Assembly (NCBI RefSeq): GCF_001552355.1
Contig: NZ_BCRA01000024.1
Coordinates: 1-64,000 of the forward strand
Origin: Microbacterium resistens NBRC 103078
GTDB lineage: Bacteria > Actinomycetota > Actinomycetes > Actinomycetales > Microbacteriaceae
Length of the DNA stretch: 64,000 nucleotides
Direction of reading: 5' to 3'
Below, in pieces: positions 17,285 to 26,216 of the stretch. Under the pieces are notes generated by a model. It did no database searches, was not told the origin of the DNA, and saw nothing but the letters and a program-made list of their open reading frames with translations. Both the position numbers and the translations under genes were made by a program. Positions within the stretch are counted from its first letter, which is position 1; the number at the start of each line of letters is the position of its first letter.

Positions 17285-18352
17285 ATGAACCGTCTGCCCC
17301 TGCCCGAATTCGCCCACGAGCGCGTGGAGGTGGTGAGCGGCCGGCGAAGCGGGCTGTTCATCGCCGTCGCCCTGCACTCGTCCGTGCTCGGATCCGCCCT
17401 CGGCGGCGCACGGCTGTGGACCTATCCGCACTGGAGCGACGCCCTCGGCGACGCGCTGCGGTTGTCCGCCGCGATGACGCTGAAGAACGCCGCAGCCGGT
17501 CTGGACGCGGGCGGCGGGAAGTCCGTGATCGCCCTGATGCCCGGTGAGGAGCTGGACGCCGGGCGACGCCGGGATGCGTTCCTCGACCTCGGCGACGCCG
17601 TGGAGAGCCTCGGCGGCCTGTACCGGACGGCGGAGGACGTCGGCAGCACCACCGACGACATGCTCGTGGTCAGCGAGCGGACGGCGCACGTCGTCGGGCT
17701 CCCGGACGCCGTCGGCGGGTCGGGGGAGCCCGCCGGGCCGACGAGCCTGGGCGTCTACTCGTCGCTGCGCGCGGTGCTGGAGCGGATCGCGGGCTCGCCG
17801 GACGTGGCCGGCCGGCGCATCACCGTGTCGGGACTGGGGCAGGTCGGTGGACGCCTCGCCCGCCGGCTGGCGGCGGAGGGCGCGGTCCTCACCGTCACCG
17901 ACGTCGTCCCCGCGCGTCGCGAGCTCGCCGAGGATCTGGGCGCGGCCTGGGCGGAGCCGGGCACCGAGCACCTCGTCGACGCGGACGTCTTCGTGCCCGC
18001 GGGAATCGGCGGCGTCCTCACCGACGAGGTGATCGACGCGCTCGCGGCCCGCGCCGCCTGCGGCCCGGCGAACAATCCCCTCGCGGACCACTCCGGCGCC
18101 GAGCGGCTCGCCGGACGCGGCATCCTGTACGCGCCCGACTTCGTCGTGAACGCCGGCGGCGTGATCTACCTCGACCTGGAGGCCAAGCGGATCGGGAGCA
18201 GCGACGAGATCATGGCGCGCGTCGCGGGCATCGGCGACACCGTGCGACGAATCCTGGATGACGCGGAGCGTCGCGGGATCACGCCGCTCGCGGCCGCCGA
18301 GGAGCTCGCCGCCGCCCGGCTCGCCGGCGGGGTCGCGCAGGCCCGGTCCTGA
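17285..18352 (+). CDS. Glu/Leu/Phe/Val dehydrogenase family protein
   Basis: 355 residues. The N-terminal dimerisation domain includes MTLKNAAAGLDAGGGKS near 60, with the substrate and catalytic lysines. The Rossmann motif GLGQVGGRLARRL is near 182, and GPANNPLAD near 260 matches leucine/valine dehydrogenases. It probably deaminates a branched-chain or aromatic amino acid with NAD; exact specificity is not decidable. The ATG at 17285 follows AAAGAGGA, so it was preferred over an upstream in-frame GTG. Confidence 0.88.
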   Translation: MNRLPLPEFAHERVEVVSGRRSGLFIAVALHSSVLGSALGGARLWTYPHWSDALGDALRLSAAMTLKNAAAGLDAGGGKSVIALMPGEELDAGRRRDAFLDLGDAVESLGGLYRTAEDVGSTTDDMLVVSERTAHVVGLPDAVGGSGEPAGPTSLGVYSSLRAVLERIAGSPDVAGRRITVSGLGQVGGRLARRLAAEGAVLTVTDVVPARRELAEDLGAAWAEPGTEHLVDADVFVPAGIGGVLTDEVIDALAARAACGPANNPLADHSGAERLAGRGILYAPDFVVNAGGVIYLDLEAKRIGSSDEIMARVAGIGDTVRRILDDAERRGITPLAAAEELAAARLAGGVAQARS

Positions 18353-18361
18353 CGCGGGGCG

Positions 18362-18655
18362 GGTATCGGTCGTTGAGCGAGGAGCGGAGCACCGAGACGA
18401 AACGCGGTGACGTGATGCGCTTGTTCGGTTCGGGCGGGTCTCCGTGGGTCGGGACGCGGGTCGGGTCTTGGTCGTTGAGCGAGGAGCGGAGCACCGAGAC
18501 GAAACGTGGTGACCTGATGCGCCCGTTCGGTCCGGGCAGGTCTCCGTGGGGCGGGCCGCGAGTCGGGTCTTGGTCGTTGAGCGAGGAGCGAAGCACCGAG
18601 ACGAAACGCGGTGACCTGATGCGCCCAGTCAGTCCGCTCAGGTCGTGGAGCGGAA
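18362..18655 (+). repeat. Three tandem ~102-bp units carrying a REP-like core
   Basis: The core GTTGAGCGAGGAGCGGAGCA...GAGACGAAACG occurs near 18371, 18472 and 18574. Each core is followed by a shared stretch that includes GGTGACCTGATGCGC and GGGTCTCCGTGGG-like sequence, so the full unit of about 102 bp is repeated. No gene lies in 18,353-18,732. Confidence 0.85.
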
Positions 18656-19868: not shown

Positions 19869-19990
19869 CGTTTCGTCTCGCTGCGCTCGCTCAACGGCCG
19901 GGGGAGGGCAGGGCGTTTCGTCTCGCTGCGCTCGCTCAACGGCCGGCGGAGGGCGGGGCGTTTCGTCTCGCTGCGCTCGCTCAACGACCG
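19869..19990 (+). repeat. Three tandem 45-bp units, inverted relative to the 18.4-kb repeats
   Basis: CGTTTCGTCTCGCTGCGCTC, running on into GCTCAAC, starts at 19869, 19914 and 19959. It resembles the reverse complement of the core at 18.4 kb with an internal deletion. The two arrays flank the NUDIX-NYN gene in opposite orientation. Nothing else is visible in 19,798-20,010. Confidence 0.9.
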
Positions 19991-20010
19991 AGGGCGCACG
20001 GCGGGCGGGG

Positions 20011-20391
20011 TCAGTGCTCGTCGCGGCCGCGGAGGCGGTCGATCTCGCGACGCTCGCGCTTCGTCGGGCGTCCGGCGCCGCGGTCCCGGAGCCCCGCCGC
20101 TGCCACGGGTTCGCGGGGCGGCGTACGGTCCTCTGCGGCCGCTGCGGCGAGCGGGGCGCCGACGCGCTTCGAGATCGGCTGGCGGACGACGAGGATCCGA
20201 TCGAAGCCCGAGATCCGCACGCGCAGCTCGTCCCCGACCCGCAGCGTCTGCGCGGCCTTGACGCGCTCCCCGTTGACGCGGACGTGACCGGCGCGGCACG
20301 CGGTGGTGGCGGCGGAGCGCGTCTTGTACACGCGGACGGCCCAGAGCCAGCTGTCCACGCGGACGGTTCTCGTCGGATCGACCTCGCTCAT
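20011..20391 (-). CDS. S4-domain RNA-binding protein (HslR/Hsp15-like)
   Basis: 126 residues. The S4 domain covers about residues 8-60 (VRVDSWLWAVRVYKTRSAAT, then HVRVNGERVK). A basic C-terminal tail ends in a run of Arg/Glu/Lys. Relatives of Hsp15 bind stalled 50S-tRNA complexes. The ATG overlaps the stop of the YhhN gene, so the two are in one transcript. Confidence 0.85.
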   Translation of the reverse strand: MSEVDPTRTVRVDSWLWAVRVYKTRSAATTACRAGHVRVNGERVKAAQTLRVGDELRVRISGFDRILVVRQPISKRVGAPLAAAAAEDRTPPREPVAAAGLRDRGAGRPTKRERREIDRLRGRDEH

Positions 20392-21104
20392 CGGACGACC
20401 TCCTCGGAGGCGGCGGCCGGGTTCGAGGAGGGGGATACGCGCAGAGCCCTCAGGGCGCCCCACACGAGCAGTCCCTGGCCGAGGGTGTAGGTCAGCATCA
20501 CGGCGGGGCTCGTCCAGGCCGGCATGGCGTCGGGCAGGAAGAGGCGGAAGGCGAGGATCGAGTCGCTGAGCAGGAAGAACGCTCCGCCCAGGGCGATGAT
20601 CGGGGTGCAGCGCGCGGCCGTCGCCGCGGTCCCCGCGAGGACGAGGCCGTACGCGCCGACACCGACGAGGAGCGGTCCGGTGTGCGGGCCGAGCGTCACC
20701 AGCATCAGCATCCACCAGAGGCCGTACACGACCGTCCAGAGGGGCAGTCGACGCACCCGCAGCACCCGGAGGAACAGGACGATGTACGCCACGTGTGCGA
20801 TGCCGAAGAAGCCGAGCATGAGCGGCAGTTCCGGCGCGAACGGGAAGAAGAGTCCCGCTTCGTCGCCCAGCCAGGAGAAGAACAGCGCGCCGAGCAGGAG
20901 CATCACCGGCGTGCGGGAGCGAAGGGCGATGATCCGACGGGCGTCGAGGAGCACGGGGACCGCGAGGAGCGGCATGAGGAGCGCCTTCGTCGGCACCGCC
21001 AGGGGGCTCTCGGCCGCGAGCGCCGCCACGTGAACGATCGAGACCACCACGAACGGCAGGAACGCGCCCAGGGTGCGCATGCGGGTCGACGGCGGGGTCT
21101 GCAT
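20388..21104 (-). CDS. YhhN/TMEM86 family membrane protein (lysoplasmalogenase-like)
   Basis: 238 residues with about eight hydrophobic helices. Conserved acidic residues occur inside helices, including FSWLGDEAGL near 80 and LSDSILAF near 195, which match the YhhN family. Human TMEM86 members hydrolyse lysoplasmalogen; the bacterial role is less certain. It is transcribed away from trpS. Confidence 0.8.
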   Translation of the reverse strand: MQTPPSTRMRTLGAFLPFVVVSIVHVAALAAESPLAVPTKALLMPLLAVPVLLDARRIIALRSRTPVMLLLGALFFSWLGDEAGLFFPFAPELPLMLGFFGIAHVAYIVLFLRVLRVRRLPLWTVVYGLWWMLMLVTLGPHTGPLLVGVGAYGLVLAGTAATAARCTPIIALGGAFFLLSDSILAFRLFLPDAMPAWTSPAVMLTYTLGQGLLVWGALRALRVSPSSNPAAASEEVVR

Positions 21105-21131: not shown

Positions 21132-21277
21132 TAGAGTCGTGGGCATGTTCTCGTCGTCTTCCACCGGGTGGTGGCTGCTCTCGCAGCCGTAGACGACGTG
21201 TCTCGTCGGGGGCTGCATGGTGCAGCCCCGCCGAGGGAGCGATCCGTGCAGTCCCTTCGTTCAGAAGGGAATCGGAG
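21132..21277 (+). promoter_or_regulatory. trpS leader: tryptophan-responsive attenuator-like region
   Basis: A TAGAGT -10 box at 21132-21137 lies 7 bases before a leader-peptide ATG. Stem 1:2 pairs 21173-21178 with 21183-21188, and a 9-bp stem 3:4 pairs 21209-21217 with 21221-21229. Segment 2 (21183-21188) can instead pair with 21211-21216, giving mutually exclusive folds. A last hairpin, 21252-21257 with 21265-21270, hides the AAGGGA Shine-Dalgarno of trpS. No U run follows stem 3:4, so control may be translational. The folds were paired by eye. Confidence 0.7.
21145..21192 (+). CDS. trpS leader peptide with tandem Trp codons
   Basis: A 15-codon ORF encoding MFSSSSTGWWLLSQP. The two TGG codons at 21169-21174 lie just before the first half of stem 1:2. 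A ribosome starved of Trp-tRNA would stall there and cover segment 1. There is no Shine-Dalgarno; with the -10 box so close the transcript may be leaderless. Confidence 0.75.
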   Translation: MFSSSSTGWWLLSQP

Positions 21278-22345
21278 ATGGACTCATTCGAGGCGACCCG
21301 GGCGCGCATGCCCGAGCTGGAGCGACGGATCGATCAGGATCCCGGGGCGTTCCGCGTGCTCACGGGGGAGCGGCCGACCGGGCCGCTGCACCTCGGGCAC
21401 TACTTCGGCACGCTGCGTGAGCGCGTGCGGCTGCAGGAGCGGGGGATCGAGACGTTCGTCGTGCTCGCGGACTACCAGGTGATCACGGATCGCGAGGTCG
21501 CCGGAGACGTCGGCCGGTTCGTGCGCGAGGCGGTCCTCGACTATCTGGCGACCGGGTTGGATCCCGAGCGCACGACGATCTTCACGCACTCGGCCGTTCC
21601 CGAGCTGAACCAGCTCCTGCTGCCGTTCCTGAGCCTCGTGTCGGAGGCCGAGCTGCACCGGAACCCGACGGTCAAGGCGGAGCTCGCGGCCTCGGGGCGG
21701 GCGCTCAGCGGACTCCTGCTCACGTACCCCGTGCACCAGGCCGCGGACATCCTGTTCTGCAAGGGGAATCTCGTGCCGGTGGGCAAGGACAACCTGCCGC
21801 ACGTGGAGATCACCCGGACGATCGCGCGGCGCTTCGCCGAGCGGTACGGAGCGTTGTTCCCGGAGCCGGAGGGCCTGGTGACCGACGCGCCCGAGCTGCC
21901 GGGACTCGACGGCGGCAAGATGTCGAAGAGCCGCGGCAACGCGATCGCGCTCTCGATGACGGCCGACGAGACGGCCGCGCTGATCCGTCGTGCGCGGACC
22001 GACAGCGTGCGGGCGATCACGTACGACCCCGGCTCGCGCCCAGAGGTGTCCGGACTGCTCTCCGTCGCGGCCGTGTGCTGCGGTCGGACGCCGGAGGATC
22101 TCGCGGCGGACATCGGCCCGGCGGGCGGCGCGGCGTTGAAGGCGACGGTAACCGAGGCGGTGAACGAGTTCCTCGCTCCGTTCCGCGCGCGTCGGGCGGA
22201 GCTGGCGGCGGATCCGCGGATCGTCGACGACGTCCTCGCCGCGGGGAACGACCGTGCGCGAGCGATCGCGGTCGAGACTCTGCGGGAGGTCCGTGAGGCG
22301 ATGGGGATGGGATACGCGAATCCGCCGCGGGGGTTCGCGGCCTGA
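21278..22345 (+). CDS. trpS: Tryptophan--tRNA ligase
   Basis: 355 residues. The class I HIGH motif appears as PLHLGHYFGTL near residue 34 and the KMSKS loop as GGKMSKSRGN near 212. It charges tRNA-Trp. The regulated leader directly upstream agrees with the function. The Shine-Dalgarno AAGGGA at 21265-21270 is 7 bases from the ATG. Confidence 0.96.
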   Translation: MDSFEATRARMPELERRIDQDPGAFRVLTGERPTGPLHLGHYFGTLRERVRLQERGIETFVVLADYQVITDREVAGDVGRFVREAVLDYLATGLDPERTTIFTHSAVPELNQLLLPFLSLVSEAELHRNPTVKAELAASGRALSGLLLTYPVHQAADILFCKGNLVPVGKDNLPHVEITRTIARRFAERYGALFPEPEGLVTDAPELPGLDGGKMSKSRGNAIALSMTADETAALIRRARTDSVRAITYDPGSRPEVSGLLSVAAVCCGRTPEDLAADIGPAGGAALKATVTEAVNEFLAPFRARRAELAADPRIVDDVLAAGNDRARAIAVETLREVREAMGMGYANPPRGFAA

Positions 22346-24706: not shown

Positions 24707-24780
24707 CGGGATGTGGCGCAGCTTGGTAGCGCACCTGACTGGGGGTCAGGGGGTCGCAGGTTCAAATCCTGTCATCCCGA
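24707..24780 (+). tRNA. tRNA-Pro(GGG)
   Basis: A 74-base cloverleaf. The acceptor is CGGGATG with CATCCCG, the D arm is closed by GCGC pairs, the anticodon stem CCTGA/TCAGG holds loop CTGGGGG (anticodon GGG), and the T arm GCAGG-TTCAAAT-CCTGT is intact. CCA is not encoded. It is the likely attachment gene of the adjacent element. Confidence 0.95.
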
Positions 24781-24785
24781 CGGAA

Positions 24786-24989: not shown

Positions 24990-26216
24990 TCACAGGGACC
25001 TCGACGCGTCGCGCCGGGTCGGCCTGCTGGCCTTGGCGGATCGGGCGAGGAAGGCGTTGGCCTGCTCCGCGGCGGAGGCCAGGTGGCGGTCGTCGGGGTG
25101 GAGGTATCCGCGGGTTGTCTCGACGGAAGCGTGGCCGAGGATGTCCTGGAGGACGTGCAGCGGGATGCCAGCGTCGGCCATCCAGGTGGCTCCGGTGTGC
25201 CGGAGCCCGTGTCGGGTGAGATCGGGCAGCCCGAGATCCTTGACGATCTGGTCCCAGTTCGTGGCGTCCCTGACGGTGGCGGTGGTGAGCGCGCCGCCTT
25301 TCGGGCCGACGAGCAGACGCTCTTCCGGCTGCTTGCCTTCGGTGAGCCGTTCGAGGATCGGCCGCAGCGGGTCGAGGATCGGGACGCGTCGCTCCTTGCG
25401 GCCCTTGGTCTGTTTGGTGACGAGGCCGCCCTTGCCGGGGTAGGTCTGCCGGGCGATGACGACGATGTTCTTGTCGAAGCGGACGTCGCCGGCCTGCAGG
25501 CCTGACACTTCGGAGGAACGCGCGGCGAGGAGCGCGGCGAGCATCACGAAGTCCGAGTAGGACTGGTGGATCTTTCCGCAGGCGTCCGCGAGCTTTGTCA
25601 GGGTGCCCATGTCGGGGATGGCGTGCGCGCGGGGCGAGGCTTGCTCGGCGGGCTGGGTTCGGAAGGCGTTGCGGTTCAGGCTGCGCTTGGCGCGGTTCTT
25701 CGCGGGGTTGATCGGGATGAGCCCGTCGCGGACTGCCTCGTCGAGGACGCGCACGAGCGGGGCGATGGAGTTCTTGATCGTTGACGCCCCGTGGCGTTTC
25801 TCCCAGGCGTCGATCGTGCGGTCGATGATCCCGGCGGTGATCTGCGTGACCGGCAGGTGCCCGAGGGCGGGCAGCACGCGGAGCTTGAGCCCGTACCCGT
25901 AGGTCTCCCCGGTGGAGGTCGGGTCCAGCCCCCGCGCCCACCGGTCGCCGATCGCGGTGACGAACTCGGTGAGCGTCATGGACACGTCCATGCCCTTGGC
26001 AGAGGACTGCCGCAGCGAGTCGAAGAACTCGTGTGCTGCAGCCTCGTCGGCGACGATCTCCGAACGGGTGATGCGGCGCTTGCTGATGGGATCGGTCCAG
26101 CGGGCGCGGGCTCGGATGCCGTAGGAGCGGCGTTCGAGGTCGGTGGAGATCTTCACTCCGACCGGCGGGACGGGCTTGGGCTGCGCCTGCGGGAGCGGCT
26201 CAGCCTTCCGCGGCAT
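24990..26216 (-). CDS. Tyrosine-type integrase of the conjugative element
   Basis: 408 residues. An AP2-like arm-binding N-terminus and a SAM-like core-binding domain (SMTLTEFVTAIGDRWARG near 80) precede the catalytic domain. Catalytic Arg is in LAARSSEVSGL near 227, then LTRHGLRHTGA near 332, LGHASVETT near 358 and Tyr in TRGYLHP near 368. It inserts the element at the tRNA-Pro. The ATG overlaps the 3' end of the excisionase gene by 17 bases. Confidence 0.92.
   Translation of the reverse strand: MPRKAEPLPQAQPKPVPPVGVKISTDLERRSYGIRARARWTDPISKRRITRSEIVADEAAAHEFFDSLRQSSAKGMDVSMTLTEFVTAIGDRWARGLDPTSTGETYGYGLKLRVLPALGHLPVTQITAGIIDRTIDAWEKRHGASTIKNSIAPLVRVLDEAVRDGLIPINPAKNRAKRSLNRNAFRTQPAEQASPRAHAIPDMGTLTKLADACGKIHQSYSDFVMLAALLAARSSEVSGLQAGDVRFDKNIVVIARQTYPGKGGLVTKQTKGRKERRVPILDPLRPILERLTEGKQPEERLLVGPKGGALTTATVRDATNWDQIVKDLGLPDLTRHGLRHTGATWMADAGIPLHVLQDILGHASVETTRGYLHPDDRHLASAAEQANAFLARSAKASRPTRRDASRSL

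Follow-up and report, generated by a model that had tools for sequence, protein, structure and literature searches.

A candidate Trp-sensing leader, mostly lacking a U-run, upstream of an auxiliary trpS gene in Microbacterium and its relatives

Introduction

The E. coli trp attenuator follows a logic of helices 1:2, 2:3 and 3:4 combined with a U-run; it is not leaderless, and it has no counterpart of the element 5 described below. Spare, drug-tolerant tryptophanyl-tRNA synthetase (TrpRS) genes are a known way to resist TrpRS inhibitors, and S. coelicolor trpRS1 was reportedly found by Vecchione and Sello in 2010 to be under ribosome-mediated transcriptional attenuation.

A 2005 study predicted a candidate attenuator 5' of Streptomyces avermitilis trpS2 as well as trp-operon attenuators, the latter all with poly-U (PMC1262725), and indolmycin resistance of TrpRS1 is cited in a review (PMC9437257). 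For S. lividans TK24 trpL2-trpS, a leaderless trpL2 and two hairpins, with no uridine-enriched stretch, have been described (PMC8079986). Leaderless polycysteine uORFs of mycobacteria are termed translation attenuation (PMC13236596).

Here, we analyse the region upstream of a trpS gene in a 64,000-nucleotide stretch of the Microbacterium resistens NBRC 103078 genome (the window; contig NZ_BCRA01000024.1, positions 1 to 64,000). Like trp-type transcription attenuators, this region has a short ORF with tandem Trp codons and mutually exclusive helices; a U-run terminator is missing. It also has a hairpin over the ribosome binding site (RBS), 5:6, as do translational attenuators of the erm/cat or polycysteine uORF kind.

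Results

An auxiliary trpS gene is preceded by a leader ORF with tandem Trp codons

In sequence, the window TrpRS (Table 1) matches two PDB entries best: 1yi8, a tryptophanyl-tRNA synthetase, and 2a4m, named Tryptophanyl-tRNA synthetase II, both Deinococcus proteins. The W/Y synthetase family has three matches in the same genome, and a search with the window TrpRS protein returned one further trpS, on contig C80, indicating that the window gene is a second, auxiliary copy. Judged by sequence, it is probably an auxiliary TrpRS of the TrpRS1 or TrpRS II kind, beside a housekeeping trpS. A Trp leader of the window type was not found upstream of the trpS on C80.

A preliminary description of this region had reported a 15-codon ORF with two adjacent TGG codons, three segments able to form exclusive hairpins, a hairpin masking the trpS Shine-Dalgarno (SD) sequence, and no U run after stem 3:4. 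We found each of these features (Table 1): helices 1:2 and 3:4 are mutually exclusive with 2:3, and neither a U-run nor a terminator-like site was found after 3:4 in the window. The stop codon of the leader ORF is separated from the trpS ATG (21278) by 85 nt. In 62 of 66 leaders, a TANNNT hexamer ends 6–7 nt 5' of the leader start, against a shuffled expectation of ~0.4 per spacing. Judging from this position of the -10 hexamer, transcription of trpS probably starts at the leader ATG, which would make the mRNA leaderless; the conserved hexamer also speaks against a transcription start 3' of 21192. The likely start of a divergent YhhN-family gene (20388–21104, minus strand) is 40 nt from the leader start, such that the promoter region is short and common to both genes.

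Two further features of the leader go beyond the preliminary description. The first leader codons are paired with the stretch 3' of element 2 in a helix that we call P0. Element 5, directly 5' of the trpS SD, is complementary to element 3 (helix 3:5), including the loop of element 3, which 3:4 and 2:3 leave unused; together with its surroundings, element 5 also pairs with the SD and start-codon region (5:6). The cost of opening the window RBS is 8.8 kcal/mol (z 1.7 relative to shuffled upstream sequence), and that of opening the SD in the whole leader is 5.0–5.7 kcal/mol.

Table 1. Features of the trpS leader region and their positions in the window
Feature	Position	Strand	Remarks
-10 hexamer TAGAGT	21132..21137	+	ends 7 nt 5' of leader ATG; predicted leaderless transcription start
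Leader ORF, MFSSSSTGWWLLSQP then stop	21145..21192	+	15 codons; ATG 21145, TAG 21190-21192
P0 5' arm	21151..21159	+	pairs with 21191..21198
Regulatory Trp codon pair TGG TGG	21169..21174	+	in leader ORF; WW in 63/66 leaders, W-x-W in 3/66
Element 1 GGCTGC	21173..21178	+	pairs with element 2
Element 2 GCAGCC	21183..21188	+	pairs as 1:2 or 2:3
P0 3' arm AGACGACG	21191..21198	+	used in the P0 partner-swap test
Element 3 GGGGGCTGCATGG	21208..21220	+	pairing options: element 2, 4 or 5
Element 4 TGCAGCCCC	21221..21229	+	3:4 hairpin -18.7 kcal/mol, no U-run after it
Element 5 CCGTGCAGTCCC	21244..21255	+	complementary to element 3, 13 bp, -24.7 kcal/mol; 3' end is part of anti-SD arm
Anti-SD arm TCCCTTC of hairpin 5:6	21252..21258	+	pairs with SD arm
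SD arm GAAGGGA (element 6)	21264..21270	+	pairs with anti-SD arm in 5:6
trpS, auxiliary tryptophanyl-tRNA synthetase	21278..22345	+	355 aa; TIGR00233 232 bits, above cut-off; PF00579

The leader accompanies window-type trpS genes in relatives

Some trpS match was present in 196 of 198 same-genus genomes, and a window-type paralogue in 30 of the 198 (57–100% identity, counted among the matches listed). In all 30 carriers, a short ORF lies before the paralogue, starting 122–146 nt 5' of trpS and encoding WW or WWW, or in one case W-x-W. By contrast, a WW or W-x-W leader ORF was found upstream of none of 20 housekeeping trpS genes from chosen same-genus genomes, indicating that the leader is not due to chance. 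The two Trp codons are conserved (Table 1), in line with what the preliminary description had expected of a regulatory leader.

Among 80 named loci, a WW, WWW or W-x-W leader precedes trpS in 36. The 44 loci without a leader include 26 from Bifidobacteriaceae and 15 from Coriobacteriia; outside these two groups, the leader is at 36 of 39 named loci. One Bifidobacterium genome and one Gordonibacter genome that we checked have a single trpS, of the window type, and five leader carriers that we checked have two trpS genes. When the leader rule was applied to 29 further class loci, it gave none in six (L213, L215, L224, L225, L234 and L237). Two loci, L129 and L213, were scored as having no leader even though model R1 (see below) matches the element in the genome; the locus sequence ends within the leader. 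Three leaders with a single Trp codon (L173, L181 and L217) were assigned by hand.

We also searched with R1, a model of the core of the element. In the M. resistens genome, the window gave the one strong match (45 bits). At E ≤ 0.001, R1 had matches in 14 of the 299 genomes searched for the family and in 9 of the 296 for the class (window included in each). Twelve new matches in the family sit 5' of window-type trpS genes; the remaining one, L131, sits before a GNAT gene. A second match in the M. resistens genome (on contig C168, 25 bits) is inside a long ORF, and four other matches (L133–L136, 31–33 bits) have no trpS match nearby; we took all of these to be chance matches. No relatives were found in viral contigs.

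Several loci show the leader in other settings. At L131:1481-2088 (genome G405), a Trp leader of the window kind precedes a GNAT acetyltransferase gene in place of trpS. Local alignments to the closest relatives of this protein start at residue 10 at the earliest, and its first residues resemble a TrpRS start; by sequence, the gene thus looks like a deletion fusion. In another genome (G211, locus L132), the leader MISAQWWWPQQAADPCVLAR lies before a trpS whose product is 34% identical to the window protein, so Trp leaders can occur before trpS genes of the other type as well. On a Rhodococcus plasmid (L241, NZ_CP133327.1), trpS has the leader VIRQAWWRLLSQPV, with 3:5 complementarity recognisable by eye.

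In Microbacterium sp. No. 7, the leader and trpS are cargo of an IS21-type element with istA and istB (L114:370-4281; also L242, NZ_CP012699.1). Eight full copies and one partial copy are among the matches listed, on a chromosome-size contig and two plasmids, and six of the eight full copies, when compared, have a common 3.9-kb unit with 99.9–100% identity. These near-identical copies fit the patchy distribution of leader-trpS. The window itself contains tandem repeats at 18345–18650 (102 nt, three copies) and 19869–20003 (45 nt, three copies). It also contains a tRNA-Pro(ggg) gene (24707–24781) with a phage-integrase-family gene (24990–26216) directly after it on the opposite strand, possibly the edge of an integrated element.

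The helices are conserved, and 3:4 covaries

From 66 leaders, we removed eight near-identical sequences and three divergent ones (L032, L033 and L093, in which the search pattern did not detect element 3), giving a set of 55 that was used for alignment and simulations; a set of 51 additionally lacks L023, L030, L063 and L109. For 1:2 and 3:4 together, 96.7% of cells are paired across the 51 leaders, a value that none of 500 shuffles reached. Five pairs have changed on both sides, four of them in 3:4; helix 1:2 is near-invariant, with a both-side change in one pair of one sequence. Helix 2:3 is 98% paired without covariation, and is hence compatible with the sequences rather than proven by them. 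The covariation that the preliminary description had called for is present in 3:4, and 1:2 and 2:3 are nearly invariant. Because relatives keep both the Trp codons and the stems, the leader survives the refuting condition set by that description.

Across the 55 leaders, 95.7% of cells are paired in 3:5; again, none of 500 shuffles scored as high, and slid versions of the helix were 20–61% paired. Four pairs in 3:5 have both-side changes, as many as were obtained in 15 of 500 shuffles. By eye, we noted mismatches in 3:5 in seven leaders (L014, L022, L030, L031, L035, L047 and L050) and compensatory changes in six (L173, L179, L016, L036, L046 and L048).

We next consider partner swaps, in which the pairing of each leader's own arms is compared with that of arms exchanged among leaders. 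For P0, own pairing averaged -9.9 kcal/mol as opposed to -6.5 kcal/mol with swapped partners, and 41 of 55 leaders paired more stably with their own partner than with the median swapped one; the window sequence is unlike that of its relatives in this region, and pairing is retained, so we regard P0 as a covarying helix. For 5:6, own partners beat the median in 43 of 55 leaders, compared with 17–33 for five decoys; on a sequence-only MAFFT alignment, 5:6 was 79% paired with no excess covariation. The value for 3:5 was 28 of 55, within the decoy range, because both of its arms hardly vary. Helices 1:2 and 2:3 each gave 1 of 55.

A simulated ribosome stall shifts element 3 between partners

We simulated co-transcriptional folding of the 55 leaders using a rough home-made script, with a barrier of 8 or 6 kcal/mol. 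With a barrier of 8, a stall at the first Trp codon resulted in 3:4 in 7 leaders and 3:5 in 33, and 5:6 had 5.3 pairs on average; when the ribosome was placed at the stop codon instead, 3:4 formed in 50 leaders and 3:5 in 3, and 5:6 averaged 9.8 pairs. The stall reduced the number of 5:6 pairs relative to the stop in 37 leaders and increased it in 8. With a barrier of 6, the corresponding counts for stall and stop were 14 and 50 for 3:4, and 20 and 3 for 3:5; 5:6 pairs were fewer in 29 leaders and more in 9. When the element 5 region was shuffled, the switch between 2:3 and 3:4 persisted (2:3 in 48 of 55 stalled leaders, 3:4 in 52 of 55 at the stop), 3:5 formed in one of 55, and the difference in 5:6 all but disappeared, the mean number of 5:6 pairs being 5.2 as opposed to 5.7 (fewer in 26 leaders, more in 18).

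Simulation of the window sequence gave 2:3 for a stall at the first Trp codon and 3:4 for a stall at the second. Helix 3:4 was present while the ribosome sat at the stop codon, and 2:3 was present after release. Hairpin 5:6 was closed in 11 of the 12 runs listed, the exception being the run without a ribosome. Hence, the simulated relatives (n = 55) favour a model in which a stall would open the RBS through 3:5, but no such switch occurs in the window's own sequence.

Equilibrium folding gave a different picture. With the ribosome represented as a mask, placing it on the first Trp codon lowered the cost of opening the SD, relative to placing it on the stop codon, in only 29 of 58 leaders; for the last Trp codon, the count was 27 of 58. 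When 3:4 was forbidden, element 3 paired downstream with a probability of at least 0.5 in 21 of 55 leaders, and the cost of SD opening fell by more than 2 kcal/mol in 9 of 55. A general SD switch appeared in neither equilibrium calculation.

A T-run follows 3:4 in a minority of leaders

A run of at least four T after 3:4 is absent from 85 of 107 leaders and present in 22, and 54 of 55 leaders have at most four T within 8 nt. In Micrococcaceae, the family of Glutamicibacter, 19 of 245 genomes have a window-type trpS, and 13 of the 19 loci have a T-run that is clear by eye (e.g. L173, L179 and L183). Two named Streptomyces records, L243 and L244, have TTTT. These relatives with a T-run point to a transcription output. 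The trait changed six times across a tree built from 105 trpS proteins.

The median cost of opening the RBS was 11.7 kcal/mol for leaders without a T-run, with a median z of 2.0, as opposed to 7.2 kcal/mol for those with a T-run. The difference had a p of 2e-4 when leaders were left unpaired on the tree (10 vs 74), and in a larger comparison of 22 and 85 leaders the energies differed with a p of 1e-5 and the z values with a p of 0.005; L031 and L189, which have no start codon, were left out of both comparisons, and L191 also out of the 10-vs-74 one. Five independent pairs on the tree split about evenly, such that a trade-off between T-run and RBS hairpin is unsupported by a comparison with little power.

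Discussion

We propose that the leader is a ribosome-mediated Trp attenuator that turns on an auxiliary TrpRS. We hold with high confidence that the leader follows a Trp-sensing logic; the whole chain of events, including opening of the RBS, we regard as somewhat more probable than its negation, and we see about even chances that RBS opening is a main output of the U-less form. The trigger would be a shortage of charged tRNA-Trp, arising from starvation or from an inhibitor of the main TrpRS. The Trp codons are in or next to element 1, where a halted ribosome would leave element 2 wholly or largely exposed, while a ribosome at the stop codon would, given the sequence and established footprint sizes, cover it. 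With Trp present, element 2 would be covered, 3:4 would form and element 5 would fold onto the SD, turning trpS off. With Trp absent, the ribosome would halt on the TGG codons, allowing 2:3 to form and blocking 3:4; element 5 would then invade element 3 to give 3:5, freeing the RBS and turning trpS on. A U-less leader lacking the usual stop signal may thus hide the trpS RBS instead. On a broader view, which we offer tentatively and with rather more doubt than belief, this is a three-partner relay in which element 3 pairs with 2 and then 5 upon a stall, or with 4 without one; a terminator-less Trp attenuator would control translation of a synthetase, and leader and trpS would spread in actinobacteria, even as IS21 cargo, as a self-regulated cassette.

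The main competing explanation, to which we give appreciable weight though short of even chances, is classical transcription attenuation, with the U-less 3:4 hairpin causing termination and 5:6 acting as a constant brake on translation. Termination would be intrinsic, through a very stable hairpin acting on actinobacterial RNA polymerase, or would involve Rho or NusG. Covariation of 3:4, a simulated choice between 2:3 and 3:4 that is independent of element 5, the reportedly transcriptional control of S. coelicolor trpRS1, and the T-run in 22 of 107 leaders, including 13 of 19 Micrococcaceae loci, are all consistent with this model. It does not account for the absence of a T-run from the window and most other leaders, however, and it leaves the conserved 3:5 complementarity and the RBS hairpin of leaders without a T-run unexplained. 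The same evidence bears on the suggestion in the preliminary description that translation is controlled instead of termination. That suggestion is possible: it agrees with the widespread lack of a T-run, the RBS hairpin, conservation of 3:5 and the simulated relatives, but it sits less well with the minority of leaders that have a T-run, the unchanged SD at equilibrium, the sequestered RBS in nearly all window simulations, and the lack of support for a trade-off over independent pairs. On balance, we slightly favour a translational part in the output of the U-less leader.

Two other explanations seem far less probable. The structures could be by-products of GC-rich sequence, with the leader being a conserved small ORF at which no regulatory stall occurs; the region is GC-rich and equilibrium folding gave no switch. 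We nevertheless consider this very unlikely given the both-side changes in 3:4 and 3:5, the partner specificity of P0, the Trp codons fixed in place within element 1, and the lack of such a leader at the 20 housekeeping trpS genes. A T-box binding tRNA, or a ligand-binding riboswitch, can be virtually dismissed: no Rfam family, T-box included, reached its gathering score in the window, nothing relevant was found below threshold, where the sole match that could be cited for a riboswitch is to guanidine-III, at 20.6 bits against a gathering score of 36 and on the other DNA strand, and the leader ORF is conserved. The earlier proposal that a leader peptide rather than a T-box controls trpS is therefore well supported, with both Trp codons and stems conserved.

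Among the trpS leaders, nature provides versions that have a terminator-like U-run and versions that lack it, all serving one kind of gene. They let one ask directly how the output of an attenuator shifts from transcription to translation, and if U-less hairpins terminate transcription in actinobacteria.

In the open-licence literature, we found no paper on a Microbacterium Trp leader, and no 3:5 anti-sequestor for trpS in titles or the beginnings of abstracts. The attenuators predicted for S. avermitilis trpS2 and reported for S. coelicolor trpRS1 resemble the window leader in having a Trp leader peptide, exclusive hairpins and a second trpS; the window leader differs in lacking a U-run after 3:4, in being from Microbacteriaceae, and in the P0, 3:5 and RBS-covering 5:6 helices described for it here. 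S. lividans trpL2-trpS shares with the window a leader peptide that is leaderless (probably so in the window), two hairpins and the lack of a uridine stretch, but trpL2 (MMTRTCTQLWRAA) has one Trp where the window leader has two. The mycobacterial polycysteine uORFs are similar in that a uORF rich in the sensed residue is said to have a translational output, the likeness being one of uORF and output; they differ in pairing Cys with cysteine genes where the window pairs Trp with a tRNA synthetase. The window leader shares the 1:2/2:3/3:4 logic of the E. coli trp attenuator and reverses its other traits, having no U-run, being probably leaderless, and possessing element 5. The sensor is thus of a known kind; its U-less version, combined with 3:5 and P0, is an undescribed variant within the reach of our literature searches.
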